Below, in pieces: positions 58,413-64,000 of a DNA stretch of 64,000 nt (position 1 is the first letter of the stretch; every line of letters starts with the position of its first letter). Made by a program: the position numbers and the translations under genes. The notes under the pieces were generated by a model, which searched no databases, was not told the origin of the DNA, and saw only the letters and a program-made list of their open reading frames with translations. This DNA comes from Bacteroidota bacterium (GTDB lineage Bacteria; Bacteroidota; Ignavibacteria; UBA10030; UBA8401), in the NCBI GenBank assembly GCA_030679145.1, contig JAUXTU010000015.1:1-64000 (forward strand), read 5' to 3'.

Positions 58413-59645
58413 CTATGCCTTCCCAAAACAAATTGATGCGTTTGTTCCGCCGAAACCAAATCCGTTCGAAAGTGCGTAGCGTATCTCCTTTTTCCGTGCA
58501 ACATTTGGAATGTAATCAAGGTCGCACTGCGGATCAGGATTTTCCAGATTGATTGTCGGCGGAATGATCCCCTCTTTCAACGCAAGAATTGTCATCACCG
58601 CTTCAACTGCGCCGGCACCGCCGAGCAAATGTCCGTGCATTGATTTTGTTGAGCTGACCATGATTTTTTTTGAATGTTCTCCAAACAATCGTTTCACGGC
58701 AATTGTTTCTGCAATATCGCCAAGCCCTGTGGATGTTCCGTGTGCGTTGATATAGTCTATATCATTCGGTTGTAATCCGGAATGCTGCACCGCCAATTTC
58801 ATTGCACGCATTGCACCGTCGCCGTCTTCCGGCGGAGCAGTGAAGTGATATGCATCTGCTGTCATTCCAACACCAAGAATTCGAGCATAGATTTTCGCTC
58901 CGCGTTCTTTCGCATGTTCTTCTTCTTCAATAACAAATACTCCCGCACCTTCACCAAGAACAAAGCCGTCCCGATCTTTATCAAACGGACGTGAAGCTCG
59001 TTCAGGTTCATTGTTTCGTTTGCTCATTGCGCGCGCAGCACAGAATCCTGCTATACCAATTTCGGTAATGGATGCTTCAGCTCCGCCAACGATCATTACA
59101 TCAACATCTCCACGCTGGATTGCGTGAAAACCATCCGCAATTGCATGGTTGCTTGTTGCACACGCAGATACAACGCCGTAATTAATTCCCTTTGCACCAA
59201 TTCGAATTGCAAGTAATCCAGAGATCATATTGATAATAACCGCGGGAATAAAAAAAGGAGAGACCTGTTTTTGTCCCCCTGCTTCCAATTTGATCGCCGT
59301 ATGACTGATTCCAATTAGTCCGCCCGCACCTGAACCGATGATGATACCGACTCGTTCAGCATTCTCAGGAACGATTTTTAATCCCGAGTCAGCAAGGGCA
59401 TCAAGACCGGCACCAATCCCAAATTGTACGCAAAGGTCCCAGCGGTTGACCTCTTTTGCATCAAAATATTTTTTTGCATCAAAACCCTTCACTTCGGCGG
59501 CGATTTGGGTAGTAAACCGCTCTTTTTCAAATTTTGTAATGTATCCGACACCGGATATTCCGGCAATGGCATTTTTCCACGATTCTTCCACGGAAAGACC
59601 AAGCGGAGAGATCAAACCCATTCCTGTAACAACAACATTTCGCAT
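58413..59645 (-). CDS. fabF: 3-oxoacyl-[acyl-carrier-protein] synthase II
   Basis: 410 residues, condensing enzyme of fatty acid synthesis. The Cys-His-His triad is intact: Cys 162 (VVSACATSNHAI), His 302 (INAHGTST) and His 339 (KSMHGHLLGGAG, with the conserved Lys 334). It elongates acyl-ACP with malonyl-ACP. No acpP lies next to it, unlike many genomes. It starts about 260 bp downstream of the bufD-like DoxX gene, and aguB follows 11 bp after its stop. Confidence 0.95.
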   Translation of the reverse strand: MRNVVVTGMGLISPLGLSVEESWKNAIAGISGVGYITKFEKERFTTQIAAEVKGFDAKKYFDAKEVNRWDLCVQFGIGAGLDALADSGLKIVPENAERVGIIIGSGAGGLIGISHTAIKLEAGGQKQVSPFFIPAVIINMISGLLAIRIGAKGINYGVVSACATSNHAIADGFHAIQRGDVDVMIVGGAEASITEIGIAGFCAARAMSKRNNEPERASRPFDKDRDGFVLGEGAGVFVIEEEEHAKERGAKIYARILGVGMTADAYHFTAPPEDGDGAMRAMKLAVQHSGLQPNDIDYINAHGTSTGLGDIAETIAVKRLFGEHSKKIMVSSTKSMHGHLLGGAGAVEAVMTILALKEGIIPPTINLENPDPQCDLDYIPNVARKKEIRYALSNGFGFGGTNASICFGKA

Positions 59646-59797
59646 AAAGGCACCTTAAAAATGATGGTAGAAGATAAAGAAAATTTTGAAGTTGAACAAG
59701 AAAAGCATTTCTCTTGTTTCTGATTATGTAAAATAGGATGTAATACGCAAAAAAATAGATTTTGGTGACACAGGGTTAAAAAAAGAGGAAATGGTTG

Positions 59798-59823
59798 TAC
59801 CTTCCGATGATATCCGGAAGGTA
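59798..59823. repeat. TACCTTCCG ... CGGAAGGTA hairpin
   Basis: TACCTTCCGATGATATCCGGAAGGTA forms a stem of about 10 bp. On the minus strand it lies between the DoxX gene stop and fabF, with a CTTTTTTT run about 20 nt further, so it could help end the bufferin-like operon. It is a diverged relative of the AACCTTC palindromes. Confidence 0.55.
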
Positions 59824-59902
59824 ACGAAGAAGGATGCTGAGGAATGATCCATCTTGAAATTTCTGTCAAAAGGGATTGTTAAACCGGAACGACAGAAAAA
59901 TT

Positions 59903-60385
59903 TTATGTCTTGTTGTTACGAAATCGTTTCAAAAATCCGTCTACAGAAAAATTCCCCGCTCCAAATATCAGAATGATAAATGATGCCAACAAATGATTGA
60001 ACGGCGTTGCCGCTACAAACGATTCTGTGTCCGAAAAAATATTCGTCAATGCTTCACGGTCATCGGTTGCATATGCCATACTTAAGATGATAATGAGCGG
60101 AAGTGTAAAATATCTCGAGCCGAATCCGATCATTAATAATATTCCACAGATCAATTCTGTTGAACCCGCTGCAATGGCATTAAGATACGGGAATGGAATG
60201 TTCAGCGAAGTGAAAAATTCTGTTGTTCCTTCAAGATTATTTAGTTTTCCCAATCCTGTTTGAAAAAAATCATAACCCCAATACAAACGGATCAATAATA
60301 ATAACGGGTGTTGTGCATATGAAAGAATGTTTGTATAAGCAGAATGAAATTTATCTGCGAGCGGTAATAATGTTGTTTTCATCAT
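59903..60385 (-). CDS. DoxX-family membrane protein (HvfD/BufD-like)
   Basis: 160 residues with four membrane helices (about 28-45, 62-90, 95-115 and 130-150). LIRLYWGYDFFQTGLGKL near the start and AAGSTELICGILLMIGFGSRY in the middle are the DoxX signature. In HvfABCD/bufferin clusters such a protein is the fourth component, of unknown biochemical role but possibly redox-linked. It is the last gene of the operon, 50 bp downstream of the DUF2063 gene. Confidence 0.85.
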   Translation of the reverse strand: MMKTTLLPLADKFHSAYTNILSYAQHPLLLLIRLYWGYDFFQTGLGKLNNLEGTTEFFTSLNIPFPYLNAIAAGSTELICGILLMIGFGSRYFTLPLIIILSMAYATDDREALTNIFSDTESFVAATPFNHLLASFIILIFGAGNFSVDGFLKRFRNNKT

Positions 60386-60435
60386 GGAATATTAATCTTT
60401 TGCGTCTTTAGTGTTTTTGCGGTGAAAAAATCTTG

Positions 60436-61278
60436 TTAACGAAGTTTTATTTTTGAAAAATATCCGCTACTTACCCACTCGTTGAACCATTCAAATAACT
60501 TCTGCTGCAATTCTTCCTGCGAATCAGGAAATTGTTCAACAAGCAATGCAATGGATTCGCTAAATGTTTTTCGCGAAACCAATGCGCTCAATAAAAAATA
60601 TTGTTGAGAAGAAAGAATATCCCAATATGTTCGGTATGTCTTTCGATAGACAACTACAAATGTTCTTTCATTTTTTATTTCAGGAACAGTCACTTCTTCA
60701 ATCACAGCATCAAGATATTCGCACACATTATGATCGAACTCAAGCATTTCTAATGCTGCAATAGGAATAAGAATCGCATGTTCCCATTGATCTGGTTGAA
60801 CCGAGGCTATTTCTTGTTGATGTACGATCGGCGATTCTTCAGCATCCATATTATTGGTGATGGAAAGCTCAAGCCGCGAGAGATCGTAAAGAAATGCTTT
60901 GTTACGCAGATCTGTTTCTTGAATGAACTGCGGAAAATATCTGCCGAGATGATTCAATGTATAACTGTGTGATGGAAATTTCTTTACATATTCTTCCGCA
61001 ACAATTCGATCAAATTCGAATTCTCCTAATACATTTTTAACTCCGGGATAATCAATTGCCATTGATTCCGTCATTCGAAGAAAGAACATTTTGCGATAGA
61101 TTCCAATCCGTTCGACAGGAGTCAATGTCTTTGATGGAAGCACATTGGCATACGCTTCGTCAAACGGCAATTCCTTTTGTGCCTGTTCGGAGTTCCACGC
61201 TTCGTCATTTGTTCCCGGATGCTCAATCACGCTTTGCATCCAGCGCTGTATAGTGGTAAGAGGAATATTATTTTCCAT
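60436..61278 (-). CDS. DUF2063 RiPP partner protein (HvfC/BufC-like)
   Basis: 280 residues. The N-terminal DUF2063 domain (about 5-105) carries the family block RIGIYRKMFFLRMTESMAID YPGVKNVLG (split here) and HLGRYFPQFI. The C-terminal half is alpha/beta (ILIPIAALEMLEFD, ERTFVVVYRKTYRTYWDIL). In known MNIO systems such proteins bind the precursor leader and deliver it to the DUF692 enzyme. Cytoplasmic. It lies 20 bp downstream of the barrel gene and upstream of DoxX, as expected for a HvfABCD-type operon. Confidence 0.85.
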   Translation of the reverse strand: MENNIPLTTIQRWMQSVIEHPGTNDEAWNSEQAQKELPFDEAYANVLPSKTLTPVERIGIYRKMFFLRMTESMAIDYPGVKNVLGEFEFDRIVAEEYVKKFPSHSYTLNHLGRYFPQFIQETDLRNKAFLYDLSRLELSITNNMDAEESPIVHQQEIASVQPDQWEHAILIPIAALEMLEFDHNVCEYLDAVIEEVTVPEIKNERTFVVVYRKTYRTYWDILSSQQYFLLSALVSRKTFSESIALLVEQFPDSQEELQQKLFEWFNEWVSSGYFSKIKLR

Positions 61279-61298
61279 TGAACAAATTGTAGTATATG

Positions 61299-62213
61299 TT
61301 AAAAAGTTGTTTGGTACTCTGTTGCAACTATATAACTCCGCGTTAACCCATCAGGTCGTATAGAACGTGTTTGAACAGGGAAACCAGCGCTCACTTCTAT
61401 GCGGTCTGTCTGATTGAGTGAATATGTACAATACAGATTCATATTAACGGTTGTTCCCTTCGAACCGGTTATTGTCAGATCGGATCCGCTGATTGTCGTA
61501 TATGAATCATCTGCAAGATGATAAATTGGTAAAATACTTGGCGTAAGAACGATAGTTGAATTTATACGAATAGGATATGAGATACGAATCAAAAGATCTC
61601 CGCTTCGTTTATAGTTATTCGTTGATGTAAATTTTCTGAATTCTGAATTAACCGGATAATCTTCTTTGAAGAACCGATTCTTGTTCTGCGATAGCGGCTG
61701 TTGAAGAGCGGCAACCATATTTATTCCGTGGAATTGACTCCCAACTCCAAGGAGAAGATCAACCGTTCCCAGACTTGATTGATAATCCATTGGAAGACTT
61801 AATCCATTAACCTCTGTATTCCCACCACTCAACGGAATTTTTAATCCAAGCGTAATAGTATTTGAGTTTTGGAGTGAATATGTTGCACTGAAAAATATAT
61901 CCGACAATCCTGATCTCTGAGTGGATTCGCCGCGCTGCGAGAGGAATGACAATTTAACATCACATCGAACATCATCGTTCAACACCCTGCCATATTCCGC
62001 ATACCCACTATACACCGCAACATTGTTATCTGCCTTACCGTGTAAAAGACCGAATGCGAAACGATTGTTTTTGTCGATTGCAATTGAGTCATCAGTGTGA
62101 GGCTTAAGACTATTAACAGTACAAAATCCTGCGTCACTACATCCTTGTGCATGAGCATGTTGTGCGATGAAAAAGAGCAATGCAAGAATAAATAATCGAA
62201 TCTGTTTGAGCAT
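61299..62213 (-). CDS. Outer-membrane barrel-like protein embedded in the bufferin-like operon
   Basis: 304 residues with signal peptide MLKQIRLFILALLFFIAQHAHAQ. The mature N-terminus GCSDAGFCT has two cysteines, possibly metal-binding or a disulfide. The rest alternates polar and hydrophobic residues with Gly/Tyr (DIFFSATYSLQNSNTITLGL, DLLLGVGSQFHGINMVAAL) and ends YQTTF with a terminal Phe, as in outer-membrane barrels of the phenol-degradation-protein/transporter type. It lies 16 bp downstream of the MNIO gene and 21 bp upstream of DUF2063, so it is part of the operon. A transport channel for the peptide or its metal is inferred. Confidence 0.72.
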   Translation of the reverse strand: MLKQIRLFILALLFFIAQHAHAQGCSDAGFCTVNSLKPHTDDSIAIDKNNRFAFGLLHGKADNNVAVYSGYAEYGRVLNDDVRCDVKLSFLSQRGESTQRSGLSDIFFSATYSLQNSNTITLGLKIPLSGGNTEVNGLSLPMDYQSSLGTVDLLLGVGSQFHGINMVAALQQPLSQNKNRFFKEDYPVNSEFRKFTSTNNYKRSGDLLIRISYPIRINSTIVLTPSILPIYHLADDSYTTISGSDLTITGSKGTTVNMNLYCTYSLNQTDRIEVSAGFPVQTRSIRPDGLTRSYIVATEYQTTF

Positions 62214-62228
62214 TTTTTATGATAGACA

Positions 62229-63164
62229 CTACAGTTTATGACTCATAGAATTGACCAATTCATTCTTCTCAACCGGCGTTAAACGCATTTTCGGTGCAAT
62301 GGTTGGTCTTGGAAGATTCATCATAGTCGGATCAGGTTTTTCATTCCGATATTTTTTAGCTTTAAGCGCTTCTTCATGAACCACATCAAATTCGGGAATA
62401 TCTTCATCCCATTCCAACAGCGTATTTCTTCCACCGGTTCGCTGATATGCGTAGCGGTATAATTCCCACACAGCATCGATCACATGATCGTTGTGAGTAT
62501 CGAGAATATGCGTTCCTTTGTTCGTATGTCCGGCCAAGTGATATTGGCAGACGAGCGACGGATCAATTCTGTCGATAAATTCTTTGGAGTCAAAATCATG
62601 ATTATATGCGCTCACGTAAATATTATTCACGTCCATCAGCATTCCGCATTGCGATTCTTCCATCAACCGCGCATGAAATTCCCATTCACTCATGGATGAT
62701 GAGGCGAATTGCGCGTAGGTGGAAACATTCTCCAGCACTAACGGACGTTCCATGAATTCCATCACCTGTTTTGCTTTGTTCACAATGTGTTTCAATGATT
62801 CTTCGGTGTACGGGATCGGAAGAAGATCGTGAACGTTGTGTGCATTCACCCCGGTCCAGCAAAGATGGTCGGAGATGTATGGAGATTTCACGCGGTCGGC
62901 GAGTGCTTTTAACAATTTTAAGTATTCAAAATTTACCGGATCGCTGCTTCCGATGGAAAGTGAAACGCCATGAAGTACAATTGGATATCGTTCTGCAATC
63001 TTATCCAAAACATATCGCACCCGTCCGCCGGATTCGAGATATGTTTCGGAGATCACTTCGAACCAGTCAACGCTCGGATTGTTTTCTAAGATATAATTGT
63101 AATGAACGCTGCGCAGTCCAACACCAAATCCAAAATCAGATAAGTTCCATTTATTAGCAGTCAT
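62229..63164 (-). CDS. DUF692/MNIO multinuclear iron enzyme (HvfB/BufB-like RiPP maturase)
   Basis: 311 residues, TIM-barrel DUF692 family. Metal-ligand regions are visible: His 65 (VLHGVSL), Asp 99/His 100 (YISDHLCW), Glu 145/Asn 146 (LENVS), Asp 178/Asn 180-181 (MDVNN), His 189, His 209/213 (YHLAGH), Asp 222/His 224 (DTHND) and Glu 251 (LLEWDEDI). MNIO enzymes use several iron ions and oxygen to modify cysteines in peptide precursors, for example to oxazolone/thioamide or thiooxazole. ATG 63164 (MTANKWNL) is preferred over 63179. It lies just downstream of the Cys-rich precursor gene. Confidence 0.93.
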   Translation of the reverse strand: MTANKWNLSDFGFGVGLRSVHYNYILENNPSVDWFEVISETYLESGGRVRYVLDKIAERYPIVLHGVSLSIGSSDPVNFEYLKLLKALADRVKSPYISDHLCWTGVNAHNVHDLLPIPYTEESLKHIVNKAKQVMEFMERPLVLENVSTYAQFASSSMSEWEFHARLMEESQCGMLMDVNNIYVSAYNHDFDSKEFIDRIDPSLVCQYHLAGHTNKGTHILDTHNDHVIDAVWELYRYAYQRTGGRNTLLEWDEDIPEFDVVHEEALKAKKYRNEKPDPTMMNLPRPTIAPKMRLTPVEKNELVNSMSHKL

Positions 63165-63248
63165 GTATTTTTCTCTCAACGTTAGAAGAACAAAGCCGTG
63201 GTAAGCGGCTCAGTTCTTGAACAACAATGGTTCGTGGTACGGGAAATA

Positions 63249-63554
63249 TTACATCGGTTTTTTGTCGCCCATTTTTGTTGAATCCATACCGCTGCAGCTA
63301 TCTTTTGATTTTGTGCTGTCTTTGCCCGTGCAACTGTCTTTCCCTTTGCAGCCGTCTTTCCCCTTACAACCGTCTTTTGCTTTTTTCATATCTTTTCCTT
63401 TACAGCCGTCTTTGCCGCTGCAGCCGTCTTTCTTTGCTTCTTTTTTAGCTTTAGCTTTTGCAGGTGCTTTGTCTTGAGCATTGGCAATTGATCCGCTCAA
63501 TAAACCGGCAACTGCGGCGGTCATCAATAATTTGGAAAATGTGTTTGTTTTCAT
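63249..63554 (-). CDS. Bufferin/HvfA-like RiPP precursor with hexad-spaced cysteines
   Basis: 101 residues. A Sec signal peptide (ending SIANAQ, residue 27) serves as N-terminal leader. The core is Lys/Asp/Gly-rich with six cysteines at 45, 51, 63, 69, 75 and 87, each in a D-[GS]-C-x-G-[KM]-D unit. The spacing is always 6 or 12, so all lie on one six-residue register with two degenerate units (near 57 and 81). Bufferins and HvfA use EGKCG instead. A strong AAGGAG precedes ATG 63554. The DUF692 gene follows. The likely product is a modified periplasmic or secreted metal-binding peptide. Confidence 0.87.
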   Translation of the reverse strand: MKTNTFSKLLMTAAVAGLLSGSIANAQDKAPAKAKAKKEAKKDGCSGKDGCKGKDMKKAKDGCKGKDGCKGKDSCTGKDSTKSKDSCSGMDSTKMGDKKPM

Positions 63555-63559
63555 AACAA

Positions 63560-63609
63560 CTCCTTTGGATGATTAGTGAAAAATTAATTTAATGAAACAG
63601 ACAATTATA
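63560..63609 (-). promoter_or_regulatory. Possible promoter -10 and strong RBS of the precursor gene
   Basis: AAGGAG lies at 63560-63565 (as CTCCTT on plus), six bases before ATG 63554. A TATAAT hexamer is found at 63609-63604 on the minus strand, but without a good -35 at normal spacing. This may allow separate expression of the precursor from the upstream heme gene. Weak evidence for the promoter, strong for the RBS. Confidence 0.4.
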
Positions 63610-63631
63610 TCTTTAATAGGGTCAATTTTTT

Positions 63632-64000
63632 TTACGGATGAGCATCATTCATTCGTGTATAATCTATACCAATAGCATGGCAGCCAATGCAGCCTGCTCC
63701 CTTTTTACTAGCCGAATACAGGATTGAACCTGTTGGAGAGATTTCAGCCCACACCCAGCCGTTAGCATCTGCATTTTTATCGCCGGTTCTTTTAAAGAGA
63801 AAAACATACGTGGTTAACGCATTGTTTGTATAGAGTTCTTTAACGATGAGCGAAGAATCCGGAAAAATTGTGCCGGCCTTTACTTTACCGGCTCCATCCA
63901 AATATTTTGCTGCAATGGAATTATATCGTGTGCGAAGTTTTGCATCAGGATGCCCTGAGTTCCCCCCTTTGGAAATTGTATCCGAAGTATTTTTGTAAAA
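63632..64000 (-). CDS. Cytochrome P460-like heme protein, partial at window edge
   Basis: C-terminal 122 residues; the frame is open to base 64000, so the start lies outside. A TTG at 63901 is internal, not a start. The sequence has a c-type heme motif CIGCH (GAGCIGCHAIGIDY) near the end and a P460-like domain pattern before it (HPDAKLRTRYNSIAAKY, FPDSSLIVKELY, NGWVWAEISPTGSILYSAS). The protein is probably exported and binds one heme covalently. It lies 77 bp upstream of the precursor gene in the same direction. A role in redox or peroxide handling alongside the peptide is inferred. Confidence 0.78.
   Translation of the reverse strand, partial: FYKNTSDTISKGGNSGHPDAKLRTRYNSIAAKYLDGAGKVKAGTIFPDSSLIVKELYTNNALTTYVFLFKRTGDKNADANGWVWAEISPTGSILYSASKKGAGCIGCHAIGIDYTRMNDAHP

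Follow-up and report, generated by a model that had tools for sequence, protein, structure and literature searches.

A probable BufA2-like bufferin precursor with a six-residue cysteine register beside a BufB-type MNIO

The window analysed here, a stretch of 64,000 nucleotides, ends in a set of minus-strand genes grouped around an MNIO (62229-63179), the sole member of its family in the genome, and a short open reading frame, 63249-63554, that starts with ATG and encodes the peptide MKTNTFSKLLMTAAVAGLLSGSIANAQDK...KKDGCSGKDGCKGKDMKKAKDGCKGKDGCKGKDSCTGKDSTKSKDSCSGMDSTKMGDKKPM. In gene order, the features are as follows.

63632..64000 (-), continuing past the window: lipoprotein resembling cytochrome P460, with a C-x-x-C-H motif, lying upstream of the precursor gene
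63560..63566 (-): ribosome-binding site AAAGGAG, 5 nt ahead of the precursor ATG, read from the sequence
63249..63554 (-): probable precursor peptide gene, BufA2-like, Cys-Lys/hexad type, 101 aa
63477..63554 (-): Sec signal peptide/leader, residues 1-26, ending in A-N-A before Q, placed by alignment, with the cleavage site judged by eye
63267..63428 (-): nine-hexad core, DGCSGK DGCKGK DMKKAK DGCKGK DGCKGK DSCTGK DSTKSK DSCSGM DSTKMG
62229..63179 (-): MNIO (DUF692/PF05114) of BufB type, an iron enzyme and the predicted maturase
61299..62213 (-): predicted outer-membrane beta-barrel with a FapF/COG4313-like fold, between the MNIO and DUF2063 genes
60436..61278 (-): DUF2063/HvfC-type partner protein of the MNIO
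59903..60385 (-): DoxX/HvfX-family membrane protein

The six cysteines of the peptide (positions 45, 51, 63, 69, 75 and 87) are spaced by 6, 12, 6, 6 and 12 residues and all share one phase modulo 6, while all ten aspartates of the core share a single, different phase. Shuffling the core 100,000 times gave P ~2e-5 for the cysteine phase alone and never produced the joint phase of cysteine, aspartate, glycine and lysine. Self-identity of the core is 0.57 at lag 6 and again at lag 12; at lags not divisible by six it is about 0.02-0.18. A sequence-only reading of this DNA had described a single six-residue register with cysteines 6 or 12 apart, and for this peptide the pattern is confirmed: each of the six cysteines lies within a D-[GS]-C-x-G-[KM]-D unit, the degenerate units that it placed near residues 57 and 81 are the cysteine-free hexads DMKKAK and DSTKSK, and its view of the peptide as an MNIO substrate built of repeated hexads, with a non-EGKCG motif, is supported. 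Lysine follows three of the six cysteines (CKG at Cys51, 63 and 69); the others are followed by serine or threonine. The underlying DNA has an 18-bp period whose copies match at only 67-80% (Tandem Repeats Finder), and synonymous positions vary from one hexad unit to the next, so the duplication of the hexad is old or selected rather than fresh. AlphaFold models of ten precursor homologues are essentially disordered (pLDDT 48, pTM 0.17).

MNIO searches recovered homologous clusters in the same family (genomes G006, G010 and G015, loci L008, L007 and L009, respectively), in the same class (G243, G321 and G329, loci L047, L045 and L046) and elsewhere, including Vicinamibacteria (L010, L011) and Pseudobacteriovorax (L026). 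In all of those named, a cysteine-rich precursor stands just before the MNIO; that of L009 lacks its start, where the contig is cut. The ten precursors that were aligned (the present one and nine from other loci) all adjoin the MNIO, across at least three phyla, and share the leader consensus MxRxxFSKLMxGAAVAGLxSGSxAxAQ; the hydrophobic N-terminus of our peptide, with its ANA/Q junction, also aligns with BufA2 leaders, including those of other phyla. Scoring the register across homologues, as the earlier reading had proposed, upheld it in part: Cys45, Cys51-K-G, Cys63 and Cys69-K-G are invariant, but Cys75 and Cys87 are not, and the exact register is lost, with steps between cysteines of 11 residues in G010, 14 in G329 and G321 (the latter read straight from the sequence) and 9 in L026. 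We therefore do not regard the strict hexad register as what is conserved; as the aligned sequences read, conservation lies in pairs or triplets of cysteines six apart, the pairs 45/51 and 63/69 being invariant. Around it the homologues vary, with four to eight cysteines, a variable number of hexads and inter-pair steps of 9-14 residues.

Some other precursors deserve mention. The Pseudobacteriovorax precursor (L026:3681-3929) carries two triplets of perfect DGCKGK hexads beside an MNIO 43% identical to ours, and its motif reflects either convergence or transfer. A lipoprotein-like precursor from Polyangiaceae (L016:2404-2703), with SCSGKGSCSGKGSCSGK hexads and a BufB-like MNIO next to it, is another hexad variant. 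In phylum-mates (L048-L053), cysteine-rich proteins of about 200 residues with no evident signal peptide and motifs such as CMGLNACKGH...CHxLNxCxGQGGCG... are found beside EWD[SGN]-type MNIOs; matches to BufA2 are weak (20-22 bits in the three scanned), and these proteins possibly form an undescribed group.

The surroundings of the cluster extend beyond the window end on the same contig (L042), where the whole P460-like gene spans L042:3833-4339; such a gene is also found upstream in G003, G006, G007 and G010. Further upstream come a DUF6789 membrane protein, a small putative anti-sigma protein, an ECF sigma factor and a two-component system. The sigma factor and its small partner (L042:4931-5763) lie just beyond the window end. 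The latter has no Pfam match and is taken as an anti-sigma factor from its position and a C-x29-C-x2-C pattern. In G006 and G010, too, the cluster has sigma and anti-sigma genes ahead of it, and a pair of like kind precedes an EGKCG cluster in L058; a published study, by contrast, reports sigma factors for Buf1 but not Buf2 clusters (PMC12452194). When the upstream regions were compared side by side, no shared ECF promoter was evident by eye, and Rfam gave no match across 59700-64000. On the other side, a FabF gene (58413-59645) comes after DoxX. The DUF2063 partner had no match in the PDB by sequence, and searches of viral contigs and plasmids returned nothing. The beta-barrel (model pLDDT 72.5; best Foldseek E 6e-13, FapF/COG4313-like) belongs to the GCSDAGFCT family; it is inserted between the MNIO and DUF2063 genes here and in G006, and G010 and G015 have no barrel in this position. 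The family is widespread in relatives without an MNIO and is not specific to bufferins.

The MNIO itself reaches 341 bits on the NCBIfam BufB model (cut-off 310) and 250 bits on HvfB (cut-off 360), and its metal-site motifs are intact when compared with PDB 3BWW and MbnB. In described systems, EGKCG is the motif of the oxazolin/HvfA (Lys-Cys) group, and the BufA2 (Buf_6/12Cys) bufferins form the Cys-Lys group of captophorins (5-thiooxazole RiPPs), with NACKG and similar motifs (PMC13097082, PMC12452194). MNIOs of the Lys-Cys group are reported to retain Arg15-Arg16 and to have Phe next to the catalytic Asp, where those of the Cys-Lys group have Asp, and FonBC reportedly does not process NACKG (PMC13097082). 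Our enzyme, paired with a precursor that has three Cys-Lys steps, reads GLR-S and EWD-E, as against RR and ERD-F in the EGKCG type (ERD-F is also the reading of PDB 3BWW); at the sites of Arg16 and Phe250 it has R-S and D-E, and so Glu where Asp is reported for Cys-Lys MNIOs. Among the loci compared, KCG repeats occur in all six ERDF MNIO loci with a recognised precursor (six of seven ERDF MNIOs) and beside none of the EWD MNIOs, apart from stray single KCG counts in L035 and L048. Four loci of our class (L057, L058, L059 and L061) carry true KCG-repeat precursors, for example KDGKCGEGKCG, and the EGKCG precursors of this class accompany ERDF-type MNIOs. As BufA1-linked MNIOs also read EWDED, with an acidic Glu after the catalytic Asp, the site rules out EGKCG without separating BufA1 from BufA2. 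In the MNIO tree, our enzyme forms one starred clade with those of L007, L008 and L009, which has L045/L046 and L047, the BufA2-like locus, as its neighbours; the fork that encloses them has support 96/90. The EGKCG MNIOs fall in a starred clade of their own. A 'hexad type' label on this tree requires three changes, because L026, from another phylum, sits apart on a long branch.

In canonical BufA2 precursors from this search, the cysteines are spaced by 6, 6, 7, 6 and 13 and the motif reads C-x-G-x-N-x-C-K-G-x-G-x-C. On NF050166 our precursor reaches 19.2 bits, far below the curated cut-off of 60, and is accordingly treated as a variant of BufA2; close relatives with a score reach 16.8-20.6 bits, and L008, the truncated L009 and L026 had no reported match to this model. 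Others descend in steps, from 70.6, 65.7 and 61.4 bits above the cut-off to 55.7 and 42.9 (G243, same class) below it, although low complexity softens precursor bit scores and collagen-like adhesin models also score. On a BufA2 model that we built from eleven loci, our core scores 9.9 bits, more than all 300 composition shuffles (mean -6.1, maximum 5.0), with controls at -17.5 (EGKCGx8) and -4.4 (a spacing-5 version). The homologous precursors, which have the signal peptide in common, grade from true BufA2 into D-[GS]-C-K-G-K hexads, with L047, L010 and L011 as intermediates. The earlier claim that the peptide departs from described bufferins is not supported: BufA2 cysteines are already six apart and carry a CKG motif. 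The hexad pattern is real and non-random, and the apparent departure is mostly a matter of comparison with the wrong subgroup.

We therefore consider it likely that the product of this open reading frame is a divergent bufferin, BufA2-like and of the Cys-Lys group, made as the Sec-exported precursor of a RiPP that buffers copper. The sequence itself shows the signal peptide, the hexad core with cysteines six apart and the cluster of BufB-type MNIO, DUF2063 and DoxX. By analogy, the peptide is most likely modified to 5-thiooxazoles and binds copper in the periplasm, a chemistry and a role that are stated for the described families rather than for this peptide (PMC13097082, PMC12452194). The pair of DUF2063 partner and MNIO would bind the leader before export, the DUF2063 protein recognising it, and the MNIO would oxidise cysteines in D-[GS]-C-x-G-K units to 5-thiooxazoles with the loss of four hydrogens per cysteine, the pairs 45/51 and 63/69 being presumably the surest sites. 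After Sec export, the flexible chain would act as a periplasmic chelator of Cu(I). The six-residue step would be an inheritance from the BufA2 CxGxNxCKGxGxC half-domain through expansion and simplification of the unit, and not a new register. Against this reading stand the score far under the NF050166 cut-off, the lack of three BufA2 hallmarks (third cysteine of the first triplet, GW and last cysteine), the softness of bit scores in so repetitive a sequence, the Glu of the enzyme where Asp is reported for Cys-Lys MNIOs, the three cysteines followed by serine or threonine, and the want of a modelled fold.

Could the peptide instead belong to a distinct family of MNIO substrates, marked by a D-[GS]-C-x-G-K motif of its own and a different modification? 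Its score below the BufA2 cut-off points this way, as do the cysteine context and the lack of a following lysine at half of the cysteines. Yet the homologous series grades into BufA2 with a common leader, the MNIO exceeds the BufB cut-off, and the installation of 5-thiooxazole reportedly does not depend on motif context (PMC13097082); we regard such a family as unlikely. The same paper gives no support to the suggestion, made from sequence alone, that the chemistry may differ: it reports 5-thiooxazole as the product of every MNIO-DUF2063 pair characterised, with enzyme residues that correspond to the motif context whatever the chemistry (PMC13097082).

Two congeners bear on a further alternative. 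G003 and G007 have the two-component system and the P460 gene on one side, as in our genome, and no MNIO was detected in either, although these genomes are 79% and 82% complete, so its absence elsewhere in them is not certain. In G003, P460 is followed by a secreted protein that carries three CPHC-[ST]-KDKKCDMH units (L092:2600-3022), the barrel and FabF; in G007, it is followed by a protein with one CPHCTKDKKCPMH unit (L089:2405-2674), a Lys-rich protein and FabF. Given the shared P460 and FabF flanks, bufferin genes in our genome and an unmodified metal-binding protein in these two occupy one slot, which suggests that modified and unmodified metal-binding proteins can substitute at one locus; a non-homologous replacement of one by the other is possible, with two cases only. 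These unmodified CPHC/C[DP]MH proteins in the slot lend some weight to the view that our peptide is likewise an unmodified cysteine-rich metal-binding or collagen-like low-complexity protein, beside the MNIO by chance, and glycine does fall at every third residue in its best units. However, the congeners without an MNIO have a different protein and not this precursor, the adjacency of precursor and MNIO in ten of ten aligned loci argues against chance, and the score on Pfam Collagen (18.2 bits) is under the cut-off of 27.2, with triplet runs only four long and without proline. Matches to collagen-like adhesin models (NF038329 and others), far under their cut-offs, were set aside as a composition effect. 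This alternative is quite improbable. Still less credible is an EGKCG/oxazolin (HvfA) relative with a drifted motif: operon layout is alike, the repeats are rich in Lys, Asp and Gly and EGKCG precursors occur in the same class, but the MNIO is under the HvfB cut-off, lacks the Arg-Arg and Phe sites and falls outside the starred EGKCG clade.

A more adventurous reading, which we hold to be unlikely, is that the P460-FabF slot of the genus is an exchangeable metal-binding cassette, filled by a modified bufferin with its maturation genes or by an unmodified CPHC-KDKKC[DP]MH repeat protein, and that the FapF-like barrel, found within the slot in three genomes, may pass the disordered chain out of the cell, so that the peptide would serve as a secreted metallophore in addition to buffering the periplasm. 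An export role for the barrel is speculation, since its family is common in MNIO-free relatives.

The bufferin assignment is informative in several ways. First, the series shows a bufferin core shrinking and expanding by hexads while the enzyme is kept. Second, it provides a natural set of substrates, with four to eight cysteines and varied inter-pair steps, from which to learn what Cys-Lys MNIOs read. Third, a single class holds EGKCG and D-[GS]-C-K-G-K precursors, each with its own MNIO type, which gives independent support to the published specificity residues. Finally, it places a sigma/anti-sigma pair beside a BufA2-like cluster.

Among known systems, BufA1 (DUF2282) shares the cluster architecture, a sigma factor in the cluster and the EWDED motif of the MNIO, but its cysteine pattern (11, 7-9, 21) is quite unlike ours, and our precursor has no match to Pfam DUF2282. 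Oxazolin and fontiphorin (HvfA, EGKCG, Lys-Cys) likewise combine a repeat-based precursor with an MNIO-DUF2063-DoxX cluster; however, their five-residue EGKCG unit goes with an HvfB-type RR/ERDF enzyme, whereas ours pairs D-[GS]-C-x-G-K with GLRS/EWDE, and EGKCG was rejected as the comparator on both enzyme type and motif. BufA2 (Buf2, NF050166) differs in having N-x where our precursor has Asp and Gly/Ser before the cysteine, and in a third cysteine of the first triplet, a GW and a last cysteine that our precursor lacks; our cysteines are spaced 6, 12, 6, 6, 12 in place of the six or twelve cysteines of BufA2 at 6, 6, 7, 6, 13 with NxCKG and GW, and ECF sigma and anti-sigma genes lie upstream of our cluster, as is reported for Buf1 but not Buf2 clusters (PMC12452194). 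The two nonetheless share the type of Sec signal peptide, a BufB-type MNIO, DUF2063 and DoxX, as well as the C-x5-C spacing and the CKG motif, with homology running through L047, L010 and L011.
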